A stretch of 13,557 nucleotides of DNA from Bordetella parapertussis (GTDB lineage Bacteria > Pseudomonadota > Gammaproteobacteria > Burkholderiales > Burkholderiaceae_B), in contig CAMBPA010000005.1 of the NCBI GenBank assembly GCA_945869355.1, positions 1 to 13,557 on the forward strand, read 5' to 3'. Under the pieces are notes generated by a model, which ran no database searches, was not told where the DNA came from, and saw only the letters and a program-made list of their open reading frames with translations. Positions 5,310 to 11,732 of the stretch are shown here, one piece after another. The translations under genes and the position numbers were made by a program. How positions within the stretch are numbered: the stretch's first letter is position 1; every line of letters starts with the position of its first letter.

Positions 5310-6698
5310 GTGTCTGCATCACATCCATTTCCCTACTCCAGCTTTAAAGCCTACGATATTCGCGGTGTTGTCCCGACCGCACTGAATCCCGACTTCGCGC
5401 GGGAGCTCGGGCGCGGTCTGGCCGCACGCGCCCATGCTGCGGGCGTGACCACAATGGTCGTGGGGCGCGATGGGCGCTTAAGCAGCCCCGAACTAGCTGG
5501 CGCGCTGCAAGAAGGCATGCGTCAGGGTGGCATTGACACCATCGACGTGGGTCAAGTGCCCACACCCCTCGTCTATTTCGCCGCTTACACACTAAAAACT
5601 GGCTCAGGCGTTGCCGTCACAGGCAGCCATAACCCTCCCGAGTACAACGGCTTCAAAATGATGATGGGTGGTAGCACGCTGCACGGCGACGCTATCCTAG
5701 CACTACGCGACGAAGTCGCTGCCAGCCCTAAGCATGCCGCTACACCCGGCAAGGCGACGAGTGTCGATATCCTCACCCCCTACTTGGCGAGGGTGCTCGG
5801 CGATATCAAGCTCACACGTCCTATGAAAATCGCGATCGACTCCGGCAATGGTGTCGCCGGCGCGGTAGCGCCGAAACTTTTTCGAGGGTTAGGTTGCGAA
5901 GTCACTGAGCTTTTTTGCGAAGTGGATGGCACATTTCCCAATCACCATCCGGATCCCGCAGAGCCGCATAATCTTGAAGATCTCATTGACTGCGTCAAAA
6001 CAACCGATTGTGAAATCGGCCTGGCGTTTGACGGAGATGGCGATCGACTAGGTGTGGTGACAAAATCCGGACAAATTATCTGGCCCGATCGTCAGCTCAT
6101 CTTGTATGCCCGCGATGTACTTGAGCGCTGCCCTGGCGAGACGATCATTTACGACGTGAAGTGCAGCCGGCATGTCGCCGTGCAAATCCGCGCTGCGGGC
6201 GGCAAGCCCTTGATGTGGCAAACCGGACATTCACTCATCAAAGCAAAACTCGCCGAAACCGGCGCACCGCTGGCCGGCGAAATGAGCGGTCATGTATTTT
6301 TTAAAGAGCGCTGGTTTGGCTTCGATGACGGGCTCTACACTGGCGCACGCTTGCTTGAGATCCTCTCGCGCTCGGCCGACCCCTCTGCCGTCCTTGAGGC
6401 CTTACCTCAAGGCGTTTCAACACCAGAACTGAAACTCGAGATGCGCGAGGGCGAGCCTCACGCACTCATCAAGCGTCTGCAAAATGAAGGCGTGTTTGAA
6501 GGCGCAAGTGAAATCGTAAAAATTGATGGACTGCGCGCCGACTATCCAGATGGTTTCGGTTTGGCACGTGCCTCCAACACAACGCCGGTCGTGGTGCTCC
6601 GTTTTGAGGGCGACACGACTGAGGCGCTTGCCCATATCCAAGAGACCTTCCGCAAGCAGCTGCTTGCGCTCGCGCCGCACGTCAAGCTGCCCTTCTGA
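5310..6698 (+). CDS. algC: Phosphomannomutase/phosphoglucomutase, AlgC type
   Basis: Cytoplasmic alpha-D-phosphohexomutase interconverting mannose-6-P/mannose-1-P and glucose-6-P/glucose-1-P, feeding GDP-mannose and UDP-glucose for LPS, exopolysaccharide and O-antigen. The 462-aa product is almost the same length as Pseudomonas AlgC, and key residues fall one position earlier. The phosphoserine loop is TGSHNPPEYNGFK with Ser106; the Mg site is DGDGDR with Asp241, Asp243 and Asp245; the sugar-selectivity loop is GEMSGH (323-328); the phosphate-binding loop is RASNTTP (420-426). The start is GTG at 5310-5312, preceded by GGAG with 8-nt spacing, and places FKAYDIRG near the N-terminus as in homologues. 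A GATAAT (5236-5241) lies in the leader without a convincing -35. pgi follows after 36 bp, so the two probably form an operon controlling hexose-phosphate supply. Confidence 0.95.
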   Translation: MSASHPFPYSSFKAYDIRGVVPTALNPDFARELGRGLAARAHAAGVTTMVVGRDGRLSSPELAGALQEGMRQGGIDTIDVGQVPTPLVYFAAYTLKTGSGVAVTGSHNPPEYNGFKMMMGGSTLHGDAILALRDEVAASPKHAATPGKATSVDILTPYLARVLGDIKLTRPMKIAIDSGNGVAGAVAPKLFRGLGCEVTELFCEVDGTFPNHHPDPAEPHNLEDLIDCVKTTDCEIGLAFDGDGDRLGVVTKSGQIIWPDRQLILYARDVLERCPGETIIYDVKCSRHVAVQIRAAGGKPLMWQTGHSLIKAKLAETGAPLAGEMSGHVFFKERWFGFDDGLYTGARLLEILSRSADPSAVLEALPQGVSTPELKLEMREGEPHALIKRLQNEGVFEGASEIVKIDGLRADYPDGFGLARASNTTPVVVLRFEGDTTEALAHIQETFRKQLLALAPHVKLPF

Positions 6699-6734
6699 TC
6701 ATCGCCCCTCCATTGTGACTTTAAGCCCACCCCT

Positions 6735-8300
6735 ATGAGCGCTCTATCGCAAACCACCGCCTGGAAATCGTTTTCGCAAGCGGTATCCACCAGTCCGACC
6801 AAGCCCGACGCGCTGCGCATCATTCGCGCAGCCGAACTCGAGGTCGACCTCAGCACACAGCGGCATAGCCCCGCGCTGGCTAAAGCCGGTCAGGCGCTGC
6901 TCAAGCAACAAGGCTTTGAACAAGCACGCAAGGATTTGTTTAGCGGAGCCCCCATTAACTGGACAGAAAATCGTGCGGCTTGGCACACGGCATTACGGGC
7001 CCCAACACCTCCTGCAAGTGTGGCGCAAGCGGTGCAGGCCGAGCAAGCCAAGCTCGCTGGTTTTGTCGAACGGGTCAATGCACAAAATCTGTACCGAAAT
7101 GTCGTGCACCTAGGCATCGGTGGAAGCGACTGGGGGCCCCGCCTCGCGGTGGAGTCGCTGGCCGGACACGCAGGCAGACGTACGATTCGCTTCGCGTCAA
7201 ACGTCGACGCGCATGCAATCACCGCTGCACTAGACGGGCTCGATCCATCTGACACGCTCATCATTATTTCGTCCAAGTCCTTCACGACCATTGAATCTCT
7301 CGCTAATGCGGCCTGCGCAATCGATTGGTTCCGTGCTAGCGGAATCCAACAACCGCTTGATCACTTTGTTGCGGTCACAGCGAATGTGCAAGCCGCACGC
7401 GAATTCGGTATTCGTGATGAGCACATCTTTGAGTTCTGGGATTGGGTTGGAGGACGATATTCGATTTGGTCCTCTATTGGCTTGCCTATCGCACTCGGTC
7501 TAGGCATGGACACGCTCAATGACTTGCGCGCGGGTGCTGCGGCGATGGACGATCACTTCTTAAACGCGCCACTAGAACACAATGCATCCGTGCAGATGGC
7601 GCTAAGCGCCGTTGCGAACTGCAGTGTCTTAGGCTATGCCTCATTTGCGTTATGTCCCTACGACGCACGCCTGCGACACTTAGTGCCGTGGCTGCAACAG
7701 CTCGAGATGGAATCCCTCGGCAAATCAACGCAACGCGACGGCACGACTTTAGATGTCGCAAGCAGCCCAGCAGTGTGGGGAATGCCTGGCACTGATAGTC
7801 AGCATACTTTTTTCCAATGGCTGCATCAGGATGGTAAAGGCGCGCCGGTCGACTTTATTCTTTGCGCAAAGCCAGATCATCGGCATACGCGTCATCACCG
7901 GCTGCTGATCGCAAACTGCTTAGCGCAACGGGCAGCTCTCCTCGAAGGGAAATCCTTTGAGCAAGCACTTGCTGCTGTGTCAGTTAAAGAAAAAGATCCG
8001 CAAGCCGCAGCACTGTTAGCCAAACATCGGGTGCATCCAGGTGGTCGGCCTTCTACACTTATTGTCCTGCCACAGCTAGACGCCAAGCAGCTTGGCGCTT
8101 TGCTTGCGCTGTATGAACACAAAGTTTTTACCGAAGGCGTGCTGTGGGGGATTAACCCCTTTGATCAATGGGGCGTAGAGTTTGGCAAACGCTTAGCCGG
8201 CGACATTGAAAGACGGCTCGATGCGCTGGGCAGCGACCCGGCCGTCAGCCCTTACGATCCATCTACTGCGCACTGGGTGCGCAAGCTCGCCAGTGGTTAA
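6735..8300 (+). CDS. pgi: Glucose-6-phosphate isomerase
   Basis: Interconverts glucose-6-P and fructose-6-P in the cytoplasm, linking glycolysis/gluconeogenesis to the AlgC reaction next door. The 521-aa product is somewhat shorter than the about 549 aa of the E. coli enzyme. Visible elements in order: LGIGGSDWGPRL (126-137), the phosphate loop SSKSFTT (179-185), GGRYSIWSSIGLPIA (239-253), the catalytic base Glu326 in QQLEMESLGK, His357 in PGTDSQH, and the C-terminal signature ending FDQWGVEFGK with catalytic Lys485. The Glu-to-His spacing of 31 residues is the same as I recall for rabbit PGI (Glu357/His388). One variation is WGMPGTDSQH where most family members have WGEPGTNGQH; the recognised catalytic residues are all kept. 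ATG at 6735 has no clear Shine-Dalgarno, and translation may depend on readout from algC, 36 bp upstream. Confidence 0.96.
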   Translation: MSALSQTTAWKSFSQAVSTSPTKPDALRIIRAAELEVDLSTQRHSPALAKAGQALLKQQGFEQARKDLFSGAPINWTENRAAWHTALRAPTPPASVAQAVQAEQAKLAGFVERVNAQNLYRNVVHLGIGGSDWGPRLAVESLAGHAGRRTIRFASNVDAHAITAALDGLDPSDTLIIISSKSFTTIESLANAACAIDWFRASGIQQPLDHFVAVTANVQAAREFGIRDEHIFEFWDWVGGRYSIWSSIGLPIALGLGMDTLNDLRAGAAAMDDHFLNAPLEHNASVQMALSAVANCSVLGYASFALCPYDARLRHLVPWLQQLEMESLGKSTQRDGTTLDVASSPAVWGMPGTDSQHTFFQWLHQDGKGAPVDFILCAKPDHRHTRHHRLLIANCLAQRAALLEGKSFEQALAAVSVKEKDPQAAALLAKHRVHPGGRPSTLIVLPQLDAKQLGALLALYEHKVFTEGVLWGINPFDQWGVEFGKRLAGDIERRLDALGSDPAVSPYDPSTAHWVRKLASG

Positions 8301-8330: not shown

Positions 8331-9359
8331 CTAACCCAAGAACTTGACGTACCAGGGCATCGCGACTTCCAGGCCCTGTGCGATCGTATGCGTGGGGGCA
8401 TAACCTAAGAGCGTGCGGGCCTTGCTGATGTCAGCCTGCGAATGCCGCACATCGCCCGCCCTAAAGTCTTGGTACACAGCATCTTTATCGTATTGCACGC
8501 CTTGTCGGGCCAAAGCATGCGTCAATAAATTAAACAGCTCATTCAGACTAGTGCGTGCATTGACTGCCACGTTATAGACCTGATTCCTGCCCTCGGGTGC
8601 GGCAACCGCAGCAAGAATATTGGCCTGCACCGCATTCTCAACAAAACAAAAATCACGACTGGTGTCACCGTCTCCGTTGACGAGCACATTGTCACCGCGA
8701 ATCATTGCTGCAATCCACTTCGGTATCACCGCCGCGTAAGCGCCTTCGGGATCTTGCCGCTTGCCAAACACATTGAAGTAACGCAGCCCTACACTCGCAA
8801 AACCATACGACCGCGCGAATACGTCGGCATACAACTCGTTGACATACTTCGTCACCGCATACGGGGATAGGGGCTTACCAATTCGATCTTCAACTTTAGG
8901 CAAACCTGGATGATCCCCATAGGTTGAGCTTGAGGCTGCGTACACAAACGCCGACACCGCCGCATCGCGAGCGGCGATCAACAGATTGAGGTAGCCTGAA
9001 ATATTCACATCGTTCGTCGTCGCGGGATCTTTCAGTGATCTCGGTACAGAGCCCAGCGCGGCTTGATGCAGCACATAATCTGCGCCCGACACCGCATGGG
9101 CACACATTGCGGGATCACGAATATCCCCTTCGTGAAAAACGAACCGCGACCACTGCGCCCCCGATATAGATGCCTGAATCTCGTCTAGGTTATGCCGATA
9201 TCCCGTTGCAAAATTATCGAGCCCCACTACCCGCTGATCGAGCGCGAGCAAGGTCTCCACCAGATTAGATCCGATGAAGCCGGCACACCCCGTCACAAGC
9301 CATTTCCTTGGCTTGGCGCGCAGCGAAGCCTGAACTTCATGATAGCGACTGGTAGTCAT
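8331..9359 (-). CDS. wbpP: UDP-N-acetylglucosamine / UDP-N-acetylglucosaminuronic acid 4-epimerase (WbpP/TviC type)
   Basis: Short-chain dehydrogenase-type NAD-dependent C4 epimerase acting on UDP-N-acetyl-hexoses. The 342-aa sequence closely resembles remembered WbpP of P. aeruginosa O6 and TviC of Salmonella Typhi, including [31 protein letters not shown] and [12 protein letters not shown]. The Rossmann motif is TGCAGFIGS (23-31), the catalytic triad is in the SSST stretch (143-146) plus Tyr167 and Lys171 of YAVTK, and [12 protein letters not shown] is near the C-terminus. It lies 30 bp downstream of the matching dehydrogenase gene on the same strand, so they form a two-step pathway to UDP-GalNAcA. 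Whether epimerisation precedes (Wbp route) or follows (Tvi route) oxidation is not decidable from sequence. It converges on pgi with 30 bp between stops. The ATG at 9357-9359 has a poor Shine-Dalgarno. Confidence 0.93.
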
Positions 9360-9389
9360 GTCAGATATTGATGCGCTTAAGGTGTGACG

Positions 9390-10679
9390 TTATAGACGTA
9401 GGTCCGACTGCTCGGCGGTGAATATATATTTCAAGTCGTACAGAATGTGCTTGGGTTTCCCTAACGCGCGAATCGCCTCGATACCGAATTCAGCAAACTG
9501 CCGATGAGCGACCGCCATAATCACTGCGTCGTACCGTCCAGTTTCAAGAGTCTGCACAGGATGGATGTCATACTCGTGCACAGCCTCTTTGGGATCGACC
9601 CAAGGATCATACACATCCACATTCACGTTGTACTCACCAAGCTCTTTGATGATGTCGATCACGCGCGTATTGCGTAAGTCCGGGCAGTTTTCCTTAAACG
9701 CCAGCCCCATCACCAACACGCGCGCGCCCTCTACGTAAATACGTTCACGCGTCATCGCCTTGACGAGCTGCGACACCACATAGCCACCCATGCTGTCATT
9801 GATTCGCCGGCCTGCCAGAATGATCTCTGGGTGATAACCAATAGATTGCGCTTTGTGTGTCAAGTAATACGGGTCGACGCCAATGCAATGCCCTCCCACC
9901 AGACCTGGCCTAAACGGAAGAAAATTCCATTTCGTTCCCGCGGCTTGCAGCACCGCCTCGGTGTCGATGCCGAGTTTGTTAAAAATCAGCGCTAATTCAT
10001 TGATCAACGCGATATTGACATCGCGCTGCGTATTCTCAATGACCTTGGCTGCTTCCGCTACGCGTATGCTCGGCGCCAAATGCGTGCCCGCCACGACGAT
10101 CTGGCGGTATAGCGCATCAACTAAACCAGCCACCTCGGGTGTCGACCCTGACGTGACTTTTTTAATCGTACTGACACGATGCTCTTTATCGCCAGGATTG
10201 ATTCGTTCTGGGCTGTACCCTGCAAAAAAATCGATGTTATAGCGCAAGCCAGACACGCGCTCGAGCACAGGCACGCAAACCTCTTCAGTCGCGCCCGGAT
10301 AGACAGTAGACTCATAAATGACGATATCGCCGGCTTTGAGCACCTGAGCGATTGTTTCACTGGCTTTAACCAGAGGCGCCAGATCAGGCTGCTTGTACTC
10401 ATCAATGGGCGTGGGTACCGTCACGATAAAGACATTCGCCTGCGCGAGATCCGCGCGCTGGTCGGTATATCGCAAATGTTTCGCAGCGGCGAGCTCGACA
10501 GCATCCACCTCTAGCGTGTGATCATGTCCATTCTTGAGCGCGTCAACGCGTGCTGTATTGATATCAAAGCCCACGACACTGCGTTGCTTACCGAACTCAA
10601 CCGCTAGGGGTAAGCCAACGTAACCGAGCCCCACAATCGCAAGTTTGACATCCTGAATGTGCAAAATATTCTCCGGCAA
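9390..10679 (-). CDS. wbpO: UDP-N-acetylhexosamine C6 dehydrogenase (WbpO/TviB type)
   Basis: NAD-dependent four-electron dehydrogenase of the UDP-glucose/GDP-mannose dehydrogenase family, oxidising the C6 hydroxyl of UDP-GlcNAc or UDP-GalNAc to the carboxylate. The 429-aa product has the N-terminal Rossmann motif [15 protein letters not shown] (16-30), VTVPTPID (87-93), YESTVYPG (122-129), Lys212 in [12 protein letters not shown], and the catalytic thiol Cys265 in [12 protein letters not shown]. It ends [15 protein letters not shown], much like TviB as I remember it. The start is TTG at 10677-10679: an in-frame stop lies just upstream, no ATG precedes the nucleotide-binding motif, and a GAGG (10687-10690 on the + strand as cctc) sits 7 nt away. 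It heads the wbpO-wbpP pair for UDP-GalNAcA, a precursor of O-antigen or capsule; no glycosyltransferase or transporter genes are nearby. Confidence 0.94.
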
Positions 10680-10761: not shown

Positions 10762-10793
10762 AAAAAAAAGCCCAAGACTTTGCAGTCTTGGGC
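10762..10793 (-). terminator. Strong Rho-independent terminator of the small RNA / coq7 transcript
   Basis: GCCCAAGACT (10784-10793 read leftward) pairs perfectly over 10 bp with AGTCTTGGGC (10770-10779), closed by a GCAA tetraloop and followed by eight Ts (10762-10769). It is oriented leftward, so it ends RNA coming from coq7 or from the intergenic region, and it separates that transcript from wbpO. Confidence 0.92.
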
Positions 10794-10857
10794 TAAATCC
10801 ACCTATAGAGGAGGGTGGAGGAGACAACCATGACAAGTTAAGGAGGGGACACATTTG
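10762..10857 (-). ncRNA. Candidate trans-acting small RNA with anti-Shine-Dalgarno motifs, downstream of coq7 (NcS27-like)
   Basis: Read leftward, the RNA would carry three C/U-rich stretches complementary to ribosome-binding sites: CCCCUCCUUAA (10838-10848), UCUCCUCC (10817-10824) and CCCUCCUCU (10807-10815). The last lies in the 10-nt loop of a hairpin with stem UCCACC/GGUGGA (10814-10819 with 10798-10803). The RNA ends in a strong intrinsic terminator. CCUCCUUA matches the 3' end of 16S rRNA, so the RNA could mask Shine-Dalgarno sequences of many mRNAs. From memory, NcS27 of Burkholderia cenocepacia is a small RNA located directly downstream of coq7; the same neighbourhood here suggests a homologue. 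The 5' end is uncertain: about 90-95 nt if processed or started near 10850-10857, about 170 nt if started from the promoter-like element at 10939-10967, or it may be cut from the coq7 3' UTR. Confidence 0.7.
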
Positions 10858-10884
10858 GTACGCCTCAGTTGCTTTAACCTTCAG

Positions 10885-10899
10885 GTCGCTTCCAGCGAC
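10885..10899 (-). other. Small hairpin upstream of the small-RNA candidate
   Basis: A perfect 6-bp inverted repeat, GTCGCT/AGCGAC, has a 3-nt spacer. If transcription starts at the promoter-like element at 10939-10967, this would be a 5' hairpin of the longer RNA. It may instead be a processing or structural element, or chance. Confidence 0.35.
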
Positions 10900-10938
10900 G
10901 AGCGATTAACCAACTTGTTACTTAACTTCCATAGATGA

Positions 10939-10967
10939 ATGGTAGGCTATTTTTTTGTGCGTTGCAA
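10939..10967 (-). promoter_or_regulatory. Candidate promoter for the small RNA
   Basis: Read leftward, TTGCAA (10962-10967, 4/6 to -35) and TACCAT (10939-10944, 4/6 to -10) are separated by exactly 17 bp with an A-rich spacer. The predicted start is near 10931, and nothing is encoded between it and the terminator. The -35 lies within one of the two direct repeats, which suggests regulated activity. Confidence 0.42.
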
Positions 10968-10970
10968 GAA
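10952..10970 (+). repeat. Direct repeat copy 1, TTTTTGTGC-N3-GCAA type, over the candidate -35
   Basis: TTTTTGTGCGTTGCAAGAA matches copy 2 at 11009-11027 in 16 of 19 positions. The core TGC(N3)GCA is dyad-like, as expected for a regulator operator. It overlaps the candidate -35 of the small-RNA promoter. Confidence 0.5.
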
Positions 10971-11008: not shown

Positions 11009-11027
11009 TTTTTGTGCATCGCAACAA
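11009..11027 (+). repeat. Direct repeat copy 2, upstream of the candidate small-RNA promoter
   Basis: TTTTTGTGCATCGCAACAA is the second copy, centred 57 bp from copy 1 and just 28 bp after the coq7 stop. Its arms TTGTGC and GCAACAA are close to a palindrome. TGC/GCA-rich operators of this kind recall the sites of PhaR-type regulators near phasin genes in betaproteobacteria; that resemblance is from memory only. Confidence 0.48.
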
Positions 11028-11054: not shown

Positions 11055-11732
11055 CTAGACGCGATAGGCCGTCGTTGTCATCAGGCGTGAAATGGCCTGC
11101 ATGACCCCTTTTACCGGTGCCGGTAGCGGCAATGCCCCATGGTTTTCCGCTGTTTCCCGATGTTTGGTCTCATCATTTTTTATTTGAAGCACGATGGCGC
11201 GAGAACGACTGTCTTGCGCGGGCAAGCGCTCGAGGTGACTATCCAAGTGCGCCTCGACCTGCCGCTCTGTTTCCGCCATGAACCCAAGATTATGGGGCAC
11301 GCCCGAGCGACCTGCCAGGGAACCGAGGACAAAGGACCCGAGATACCAGATGGGGTTTAAGACGCTTGGACGCGCATCAAGCTCGGATAAGCGCTGTCCA
11401 CACCAGGCCAAGTGGTCCACCTCTTCTGCAGCCGCCTCGAGCAGAACCTGGGTACAAGCAGGATCCTTGCAAGCAACGGACTGACCCCGATAAAGCGCCT
11501 GCGCACAGATTTCGCCGACGTGATTCACACGCATCAGCCCCGCGACATGCCTCTTTTGTGCCATATCCAGCTCTTGAGGTTCGGGTGCCAACATAGCAGC
11601 CGGATTCGGGCGCTTAGACCGGACGGCCCCCGAAAGCACCTGCAAGGCCATGTCAGCCTCTGCGATCAACGCATCAAACATGCCATGGCGACGCACAAAG
11701 CCCGACGCCAATTTTGGCAAAGAATCCTGCAT
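11055..11732 (-). CDS. coq7: Coq7, 3-demethoxyubiquinol 3-hydroxylase (di-iron)
   Basis: Membrane-associated di-iron monooxygenase for a late ring hydroxylation in ubiquinone synthesis. The 225-aa product has the four-helix ferritin-like ligands in order: RVNHVGEICAQALY with Glu74, EEVDHLAW with Glu104 and His107, ETERQVEAHLDSHL around Glu154-Glu160, and DETKH with Glu188 and His191. The hydrophobic segment WYLGSFVLGSLAG (129-141) fits the membrane-contacting region. The ATG at 11730-11732 is chosen because GGAG sits 6 nt upstream. An internal ATG (Met18, 11679-11681) would match where many homologues begin but has no Shine-Dalgarno. A -10-like TAAAAT (11760-11765 on the complementary strand) lies upstream. 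The gene is divergent from the OsmC gene and is followed by the small-RNA candidate. Confidence 0.96.
   Translation of the reverse strand: MQDSLPKLASGFVRRHGMFDALIAEADMALQVLSGAVRSKRPNPAAMLAPEPQELDMAQKRHVAGLMRVNHVGEICAQALYRGQSVACKDPACTQVLLEAAAEEVDHLAWCGQRLSELDARPSVLNPIWYLGSFVLGSLAGRSGVPHNLGFMAETERQVEAHLDSHLERLPAQDSRSRAIVLQIKNDETKHRETAENHGALPLPAPVKGVMQAISRLMTTTAYRV

Follow-up and report, generated by a model that had tools for sequence, protein, structure and literature searches.

A small RNA of family RF02278 downstream of coq7 and its putative control by PhaR

Downstream of coq7, in the 13,557-nucleotide stretch of DNA that was analysed (the window), lies a short minus-strand element whose C/U-rich segments and terminator raise the question of what kind of gene it is and what controls it. 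The element is a genuine sRNA gene, a member of family RF02278 and the positional homologue of S17 of B. pertussis. The family's name, 'toxic sRNA', refers to growth inhibition on overexpression. That this RF02278 member and S17 homologue stands under the control of PhaR is the reading favoured here, with a probability of about three in four. In the view taken here, nothing at the locus says more about it than the paired PhaR boxes predicted at its promoter, which the original prediction did not mention. The family itself is known; the paired boxes at an RF02278 promoter are new here, and no link of PhaR or PhbF to RF02278, S17 or NcS27 was found among the open-licence papers listed by the literature searches.

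An RF02278 small RNA beside coq7

The cmscan match to RF02278 at 10826-10762 (minus strand) scores 68.1 bits against a gathering cut-off of 50 (E 2.8e-12). The 179 nucleotides from 10940 to 10762 are predicted to fold with -61.7 kcal/mol (z-score -4.7), a stability equalled by 0 of 200 shuffles. The E-value and the fold z-score, together with matches across many related genomes, place the element beyond chance. Matches to RF02877 (NmsRb; 32.6 bits, cut-off 52) and RF02837 stayed below their own cut-offs in cmscan, and the identities Neisseria NmsRb and anti-hemB were dropped on these scores. The features of the locus are collected in Table 1.

Table 1. Features of the coq7-sRNA locus, in window coordinates.
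Feature	Position	Strand	Sequence	Basis or remark
coq7, upstream neighbour	11055..11732	-		same strand as the sRNA; PF03232, E 1.1e-42
Distal PhaR box (predicted)	11011..11027	-	TTGTTGCGATGCACAAA	0 mismatches to YTKNTGCRNYGCANMAR (PMC12849132)
Proximal PhaR box (predicted)	10954..10970	-	TTCTTGCAACGCACAAA	1 mismatch; covers the -35
Promoter	10939..10967	-	-35 TTGCAA (10967-10962), 17-bp spacer, -10 TACCAT (10944-10939)	by eye
Predicted full-length sRNA	10762..10932	-		about 171 nt, like the S17 long form; start by S17 rule
Leader stem, 5' arm	10921..10930	-	GGAAGUUAAG	partner of 10842-10832; relatives show two-sided changes
Leader stem, 3' arm	10832..10842	-	CUUAACUUGUC	one bulged G; overlaps CCUCCUUA
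Mature double-hairpin sRNA, RF02278	10762..10826	-		cmscan; predicted
Site 1, anti-Shine-Dalgarno	10817..10824	-	UCUCCUCC	largely single-stranded in predicted fold
Site 2, hairpin-1 loop	10804..10813	-	CUCCUCUAUA	lineage variant of CUCCUCCUUU
Intrinsic terminator (loop GCAA, T run of eight)	10762..10794	-		read directly and by terminator scan

The terminator described in the original prediction holds in its GCAA loop and eight Ts, and its stem, given there as 10 bp, has 11 pairs in the terminator scan, which returned 1 terminator-like site against a shuffle mean of 0.5. The RNA end placed there at 10940 gives way to a likely start at about 10932, 7 bp past the -10 by the rule that applies to S17. 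The statement that the element has no ORF does not hold in the strict sense, as an 85-codon open frame (10854-10597, minus strand) crosses it. By its position and length alone nothing was found in favour of this frame as a gene; it runs past the terminator, and the frame from the leader's first ATG is by eye 4 codons long, so that a small protein was dropped as a candidate.

The sRNA follows coq7 directly on the same strand, between the end of that gene (11055) and the start of a UDP-sugar dehydrogenase gene (10679). Immediately downstream of the sRNA are this dehydrogenase gene and a nucleotide-sugar epimerase gene (8331-10679), and more distant phosphomannomutase-type and glucose-6-phosphate isomerase genes (5310-8300) complete a sugar-nucleotide cluster. 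The proposal that an sRNA downstream of coq7 is conserved in Burkholderiales was borne out. Within 1200 bp downstream of coq7 an sRNA is present at 76 of 80 coq7 loci from titled records; in the other four, two contigs end after 95-104 bp and two loci show no sRNA. In an initial set of 50 fetched loci, a coq7 match is present in 39, of which 36 show the sRNA pattern downstream of it. At E <= 0.001, RF02278 matches 48 of 61 genomes including that of the window (41 over the cut-off) and, order-wide, 192 of 300 (116 of them over the cut-off), and none of the 14 control genomes in either survey. For the coq7 of the window the nearest named isolate is Zwartia hollandica (81% identity), and metagenome-assembled genomes (MAGs) reach 94-95%, from which the organism is probably a freshwater member of the Alcaligenaceae related to it. 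One of them, a MAG titled Bordetella parapertussis (CAMBFI010000015.1), has a coq7 95% identical and a similar variant of the sRNA loop; its title is probably misassigned, and a record titled Candidatus Methylopumilus (L074) may be another such case.

S17 is described as lying between coq7 and a glycosyltransferase gene, with a promoter of the form TTGCAT-17-TACTAT, and as a 190-nt RNA processed to 67 nt with RNase E implicated; it coprecipitates with Hfq and represses a target via Sites 1 and 3, in the region of the ribosome-binding site (RBS) (PMC11722255). The window shares with this description the adjacency to coq7, a promoter with a 17-bp spacer, a long leader, the double hairpin and the terminator, although its other flank carries the UDP-sugar dehydrogenase gene in place of the glycosyltransferase gene. 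The S17-like promoter of its own, the spacing and the leader are here features of sequence only. The 27-nt stretch reported as fully conserved in S17 is not identical in the window, which has three substitutions in the Site 2 loop relative to the core of Bordetella loci, a variant partly common to its nearest relatives; the letters of this core were taken from the fetched Bordetella loci, and it is exact in 71 of 76 loci.

The original prediction had instead named NcS27 of B. cenocepacia as the RNA that follows coq7. In Table 3 of PMC4603805 the genes on either side of NcS27 are listed on the strand opposite to it, an orientation that rules it out as a coq7-positional orthologue; the published coq7-linked relative is S17 (PMC11722255). 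NcS27 nevertheless belongs with NcS03, NcS05 and NcS62 to RF02278, and these RNAs of B. cenocepacia are described as resembling the window in having two hairpins, C/U-rich single strands directed against the RBS and a terminator (PMC5688073). In H. seropedicae SmR1, four RF02278 sRNAs are reported (PMC7011215).

All three C/U segments noted earlier are present in the minus-strand sequence. In the predicted full-length fold Site 1 has a mean unpaired probability of 0.65, with at least 0.94 for each of its first five bases, and Site 2 has a mean of 0.83, so modelled that the double-hairpin body would expose two anti-Shine-Dalgarno segments. That the RNA is of a kind that covers ribosome-binding sites, as had been suggested, agrees with the RF02278 match and with the precedent of S17. 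The third segment, CCUCCUUA at 10846-10839 (minus strand), is almost wholly paired in the same fold (mean unpaired 0.06) and is lineage-specific, as only 5 of 77 loci have CCTCC in this stretch of the leader; on these two grounds it was rejected as a working anti-Shine-Dalgarno site, and the earlier count of three working motifs falls to two.

Instead, it is the stem and not the C/U motif that is conserved in the leader, as pairing is kept across loci and CCTCC in only those five. The survey covered the 76 coq7-linked loci and the window, of which 72 have a readable 5' arm beginning with GGA and the five without a recognised arm were left out. Pairs 1-8 are formed in 62 to 72 of the 72 loci, and pairs 9 and 10 in 24 and 26. 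Two-sided changes occur at pair 4 (T-A to A-T), pair 7 (C-G to T-A) and pair 8 (G-C to A-T). In all, 601 of 720 cells are paired, whereas 500 re-dealings of the 3' arms gave 534 on average (sd 5, maximum 548), a comparison in which each 3' arm is the best-pairing placement near the leader end, which favours the stem, and in which the shuffles ignore relatedness.

The promoter and its predicted PhaR boxes

Both hexamers of the promoter agree with the consensus at 4 of 6 positions (by eye). The pair falls below the 9-of-12 threshold of the promoter scan and is unlisted there, and the -10 of the window is weak. With hexamers of this kind the support for the promoter comes from conservation and not from consensus: at 75 of 76 coq7 loci TTGCNNNGCA stands as the -35 and is followed by TANNNT after 16-18 bp, and the same pattern appears anywhere in about 4% of Markov-resampled 300-bp sequences. 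The promoter-like element with 17-bp spacing that had been put forward as the RNA's own is therefore conserved, and has its counterpart in S17. The sole locus of the 76 that lacks the -35 box is that of Sheuella amnicola, where the distal box is kept.

PhaR is a repressor that senses polyhydroxybutyrate (PHB) granules and has phasin genes as its classic targets. It is described as binding cooperative sites, being sequestered by granules and later rebinding DNA (PMC12849132). The consensus given there for R. eutropha is YTKNTGCRNYGCANMAR. Two predicted boxes in the window, 57 bp apart, match it (Table 1), and they also resemble the motif TG[N]TGC[N]3GCAA of PhbF, which was footprinted in H. seropedicae (PMC3206438). 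An upstream motif common to three double-hairpin RNAs is reported in Fig. S3 of PMC5688073 and may be the same PhaR box.

The assembly to which the window belongs (1.8 Mb) contains 49 sites within one mismatch of the PhaR consensus, against 20 for a reversed control. Five sites are perfect, one of them the distal box of the window; the neighbour genes of the other four have, by eye, no clear PHB role. The sequence TTGCNNNGCACAAAA has two copies in the assembly, both at this locus. A PhaR gene is present on contig C156 (TIGR01848, 163 bits), next to the gene for an acetoacetyl-CoA reductase and the terminal part of one for a PHA synthase. A phasin gene was not found in this assembly, which is 66% complete.

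The arrangement of the boxes was compared with that at phasin loci of relatives. At phaP1 of R. eutropha, paired boxes are described as flanking the promoter (PMC12849132). Two boxes 55-58 bp apart, each with at most two mismatches and lying anywhere in the fetched locus, were found at 27 of 30 phasin loci, one per genome, with distances of 55 (1 locus), 56 (18), 57 (7) and 58 bp (1); the three loci without such a pair are L194, L197 and L208. At 17 of 18 phasin loci examined by eye the pair lies upstream of the gene and flanks a TTGAC-type promoter. A box pair is likewise present at 29 of 36 sRNA loci of the first set, 55-57 bp apart in 25 and 77-78 bp apart in four. The proximal box sits on the -35 at the sRNA, yet the spacing is the same as at the phasin genes. 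The longer distance would amount to roughly two more helical turns, as might be expected of proteins in contact along a single side of the double helix.

In the titled-record set, which shares some genomes with the first sRNA set, a second box 40-90 bp away occurs at only 21 of 76 coq7 loci, as compared with 75 of 76 for the box at the -35, and it is thus bound to lineages. Three Bordetella loci (L086, L088 and L102) have a second PhaR-like box 211-212 bp upstream of the one at the -35, with one or two mismatches.

PhaR gene and box across the order

The idea of the box arose on the first-fetched loci, and the wider tests were made afterwards. Of 300 order genomes, 209 contain PhaR (PF07879). 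A chosen set of 58 genomes has it in 56; this set was made up of titled-record genomes (50 of 50) and eight others, two of which were already known to lack it. For the order-wide comparison one RF02278 locus was taken from each of 100 of the 116 genomes over the cut-off, the genome of the window, eight G-genomes and 7 others being left out; 75 of these genomes have PhaR and 25 do not.

Of the 75 loci from PhaR genomes, 58 have a box no more than 150 bp upstream of the RNA, as do 2 of the 25 from genomes without PhaR (Fisher 7e-10, a test blind to phylogeny). Within 300 bp the core TGCNNNGCA is found in 60 of 75 and 5 of 25, and its reversed control in 4 of 75 and 1 of 25. In PhaR loci the box is less frequent farther upstream. 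Between -300 and -150 a box occurs in 16 of 75 loci with PhaR and 3 of 25 without, and in four successive 300-bp blocks from -300 to -1500 the counts are 24/74, 17/73, 11/73 and 12/70 with PhaR, and 3, 1, 8 and 2 of 25 without, the 8 of 25 in one farther block indicating the background of the core. As a -35, with TANNNT 16-18 bp on, the box is present in 35 of 75 and 0 of 25. At Site 1, TCTCCTCC is exact in 71 of 75 loci with PhaR and 25 of 25 without.

Genomes with and without PhaR belong mostly to different families, and the comparison was repeated by family group: most members have a near box in 13 of 18 groups with PhaR and in 0 of 8 without (hypergeometric 0.0008, with groups taken as independent and f1 and f43 on both sides). 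The near box is missing from 17 of the 75 loci with PhaR, with two families as exceptions (f21, 4 of 5 loci; f48, 2 of 2). The mixed family f43, with a near box in 1 of 3 loci with PhaR and 1 of 5 without, does not discriminate. One genus in the family of the window contains both states: PhaR and the box are present together in G247 and both absent from G358, whose sRNA body is intact. As to linkage, coq7 lies within the 1500 bp of upstream sequence fetched at 34 of the PhaR loci, 32 of which have the near box; of the 41 PhaR loci without coq7 there, 26 have it.

Among the genomes left out of the set, G034 and G036 carry the box. Of those with PhaR, G038 and G045 have a box within 150 bp, G042 has one in 2 of 7 copies read, and G056 has none; of those without PhaR, G044 has no box and G049 has the TGCAAAGCA core. 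G042 contains nine RF02278 matches, eight of them over the cut-off and two about 380 bp apart, an expansion of the family, and six of its seven stretches (L042-L048) have no coq7 match.

A possible storage circuit and its alternatives

Control by PhaR is inferred from the boxes, their spacing, the likeness to phasin loci and the association with the PhaR gene, all of which are shown at the level of sequence together with the family, the synteny and the conserved promoter and stem. The circuit would run as follows. When PHB is low, PhaR would occupy the two boxes, at the -35 and 57 bp upstream, and repress transcription of the sRNA. With carbon in excess PhaR would move to PHB granules and the sRNA would be derepressed together with phasin. 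Cleavage of the transcript of about 171 nt shortly before Site 1, for which RNase E is the probable enzyme, would leave a stable double hairpin of about 65 nt. Its two C/U segments, probably with Hfq, would then pair with the Shine-Dalgarno regions of mRNAs for uptake and catabolism and block translation. Carbon would thus be taken up more slowly after storage has begun. Use of the promoter, cleavage by RNase E, Hfq and blocking of the RBS are taken by analogy from S17.

A different account keeps the sRNA but gives it a constitutive promoter, or one served by another factor, with TTGCNNNGCA an inherited -35 that has no role for PhaR. The promoter is indeed conserved along with the coq7 linkage; the likeness of the loci may be one of descent; TTGC by itself is ordinary, as the general -35 of B. 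cenocepacia is reported to be TTGCC (PMC4603805); and the level of S17 in vivo is described as dependent on BvgAS (PMC11722255). Against this, the GCA half of the box lies outside the -35 hexamer and is nevertheless kept in 75 of 76 loci, the distal copy is outside the promoter altogether, similar boxes with similar spacing occur at unlinked phasin loci, and genomes without PhaR seldom have the box close to the RNA. This account is consequently judged unlikely, though it is the strongest of the alternatives. The sign of control could also be reversed, the boxes binding PhaR as an activator and the sRNA being made when granules are absent. PhaR is known to activate phaP3 in R. eutropha (PMC12849132), but a box over the -35 is in a repressing position, and NcS27, ncS03 and ncS05 are up 4.3-, 8.0- and 6.9-fold in glucose medium, where PHB would be expected; activation thus appears improbable.

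It is hardly credible that the RNA is a 3'-UTR fragment cut from coq7 mRNA, or degraded read-through. The RNA is on the same strand as coq7 and its predicted start is about 120 nt past the coq7 stop, in keeping with such an origin, but a conserved promoter lies between the two, the long form of S17 is described as starting at its own promoter and resisting TEX (PMC11722255), and the box is still present at 26 of the 41 PhaR loci that have no coq7 in the sequence fetched upstream.

The preferred reading, repression by PhaR, has a parallel in MmgR of Sinorhizobium meliloti, an sRNA described as tied to PHB and repressed by PhaR (AniA), as proposed here (PMC12542648). MmgR is alphaproteobacterial and is described there as a likely repressor of phasin mRNA, and the likeness is drawn from its description. 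The NmsR/RcoF siblings of Neisseria are likewise metabolic sRNAs for which anti-Shine-Dalgarno action is discussed, but are reported to be controlled by RelA (PMC5362039). It also seems probable, if less firmly so than control at the window, that the RF02278/S17 family is an RNA arm of the PhaR regulon in much of Burkholderiales and that PhaR is the repressor of S17. The authors of the S17 report speculate on an unidentified repressor of its promoter (PMC11722255), and the discoverers of NcS27 leave open why sRNA accumulates; PhaR is now a named candidate for the control of these sRNAs. If this is true, granule formation would simultaneously free PhaR from the paired, helically phased boxes of phasin and sRNA promoters, and carbon storage would directly switch off translation of carbon-uptake genes, linking storage, throughout a bacterial order, to a post-transcriptional block on uptake. 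It would also be the second case, beside MmgR, of PhaR acting via an sRNA.

Possible targets were sought in the genome of the window, where GGAGGAGA followed by ATG 3-11 bases on occurs in 8 places (2 for a reversed control). The opposite strand of the sRNA locus accounts for one of these, and among the remaining seven only L367 (C328:2740-2757) resembles, by eye, the start of a gene. The 89-residue piece encoded there has no Pfam or NCBIfam match; by eye it is an exported protein resembling tricarboxylate-transporter receptors. Its start region contains GGAGGAGACA, a ten-base complement of the mature sRNA's 5' end, and the duplex with the sRNA is predicted at -23.9 kcal/mol, a value without a control. 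L367 may accordingly be taken as a candidate target, as a lead.
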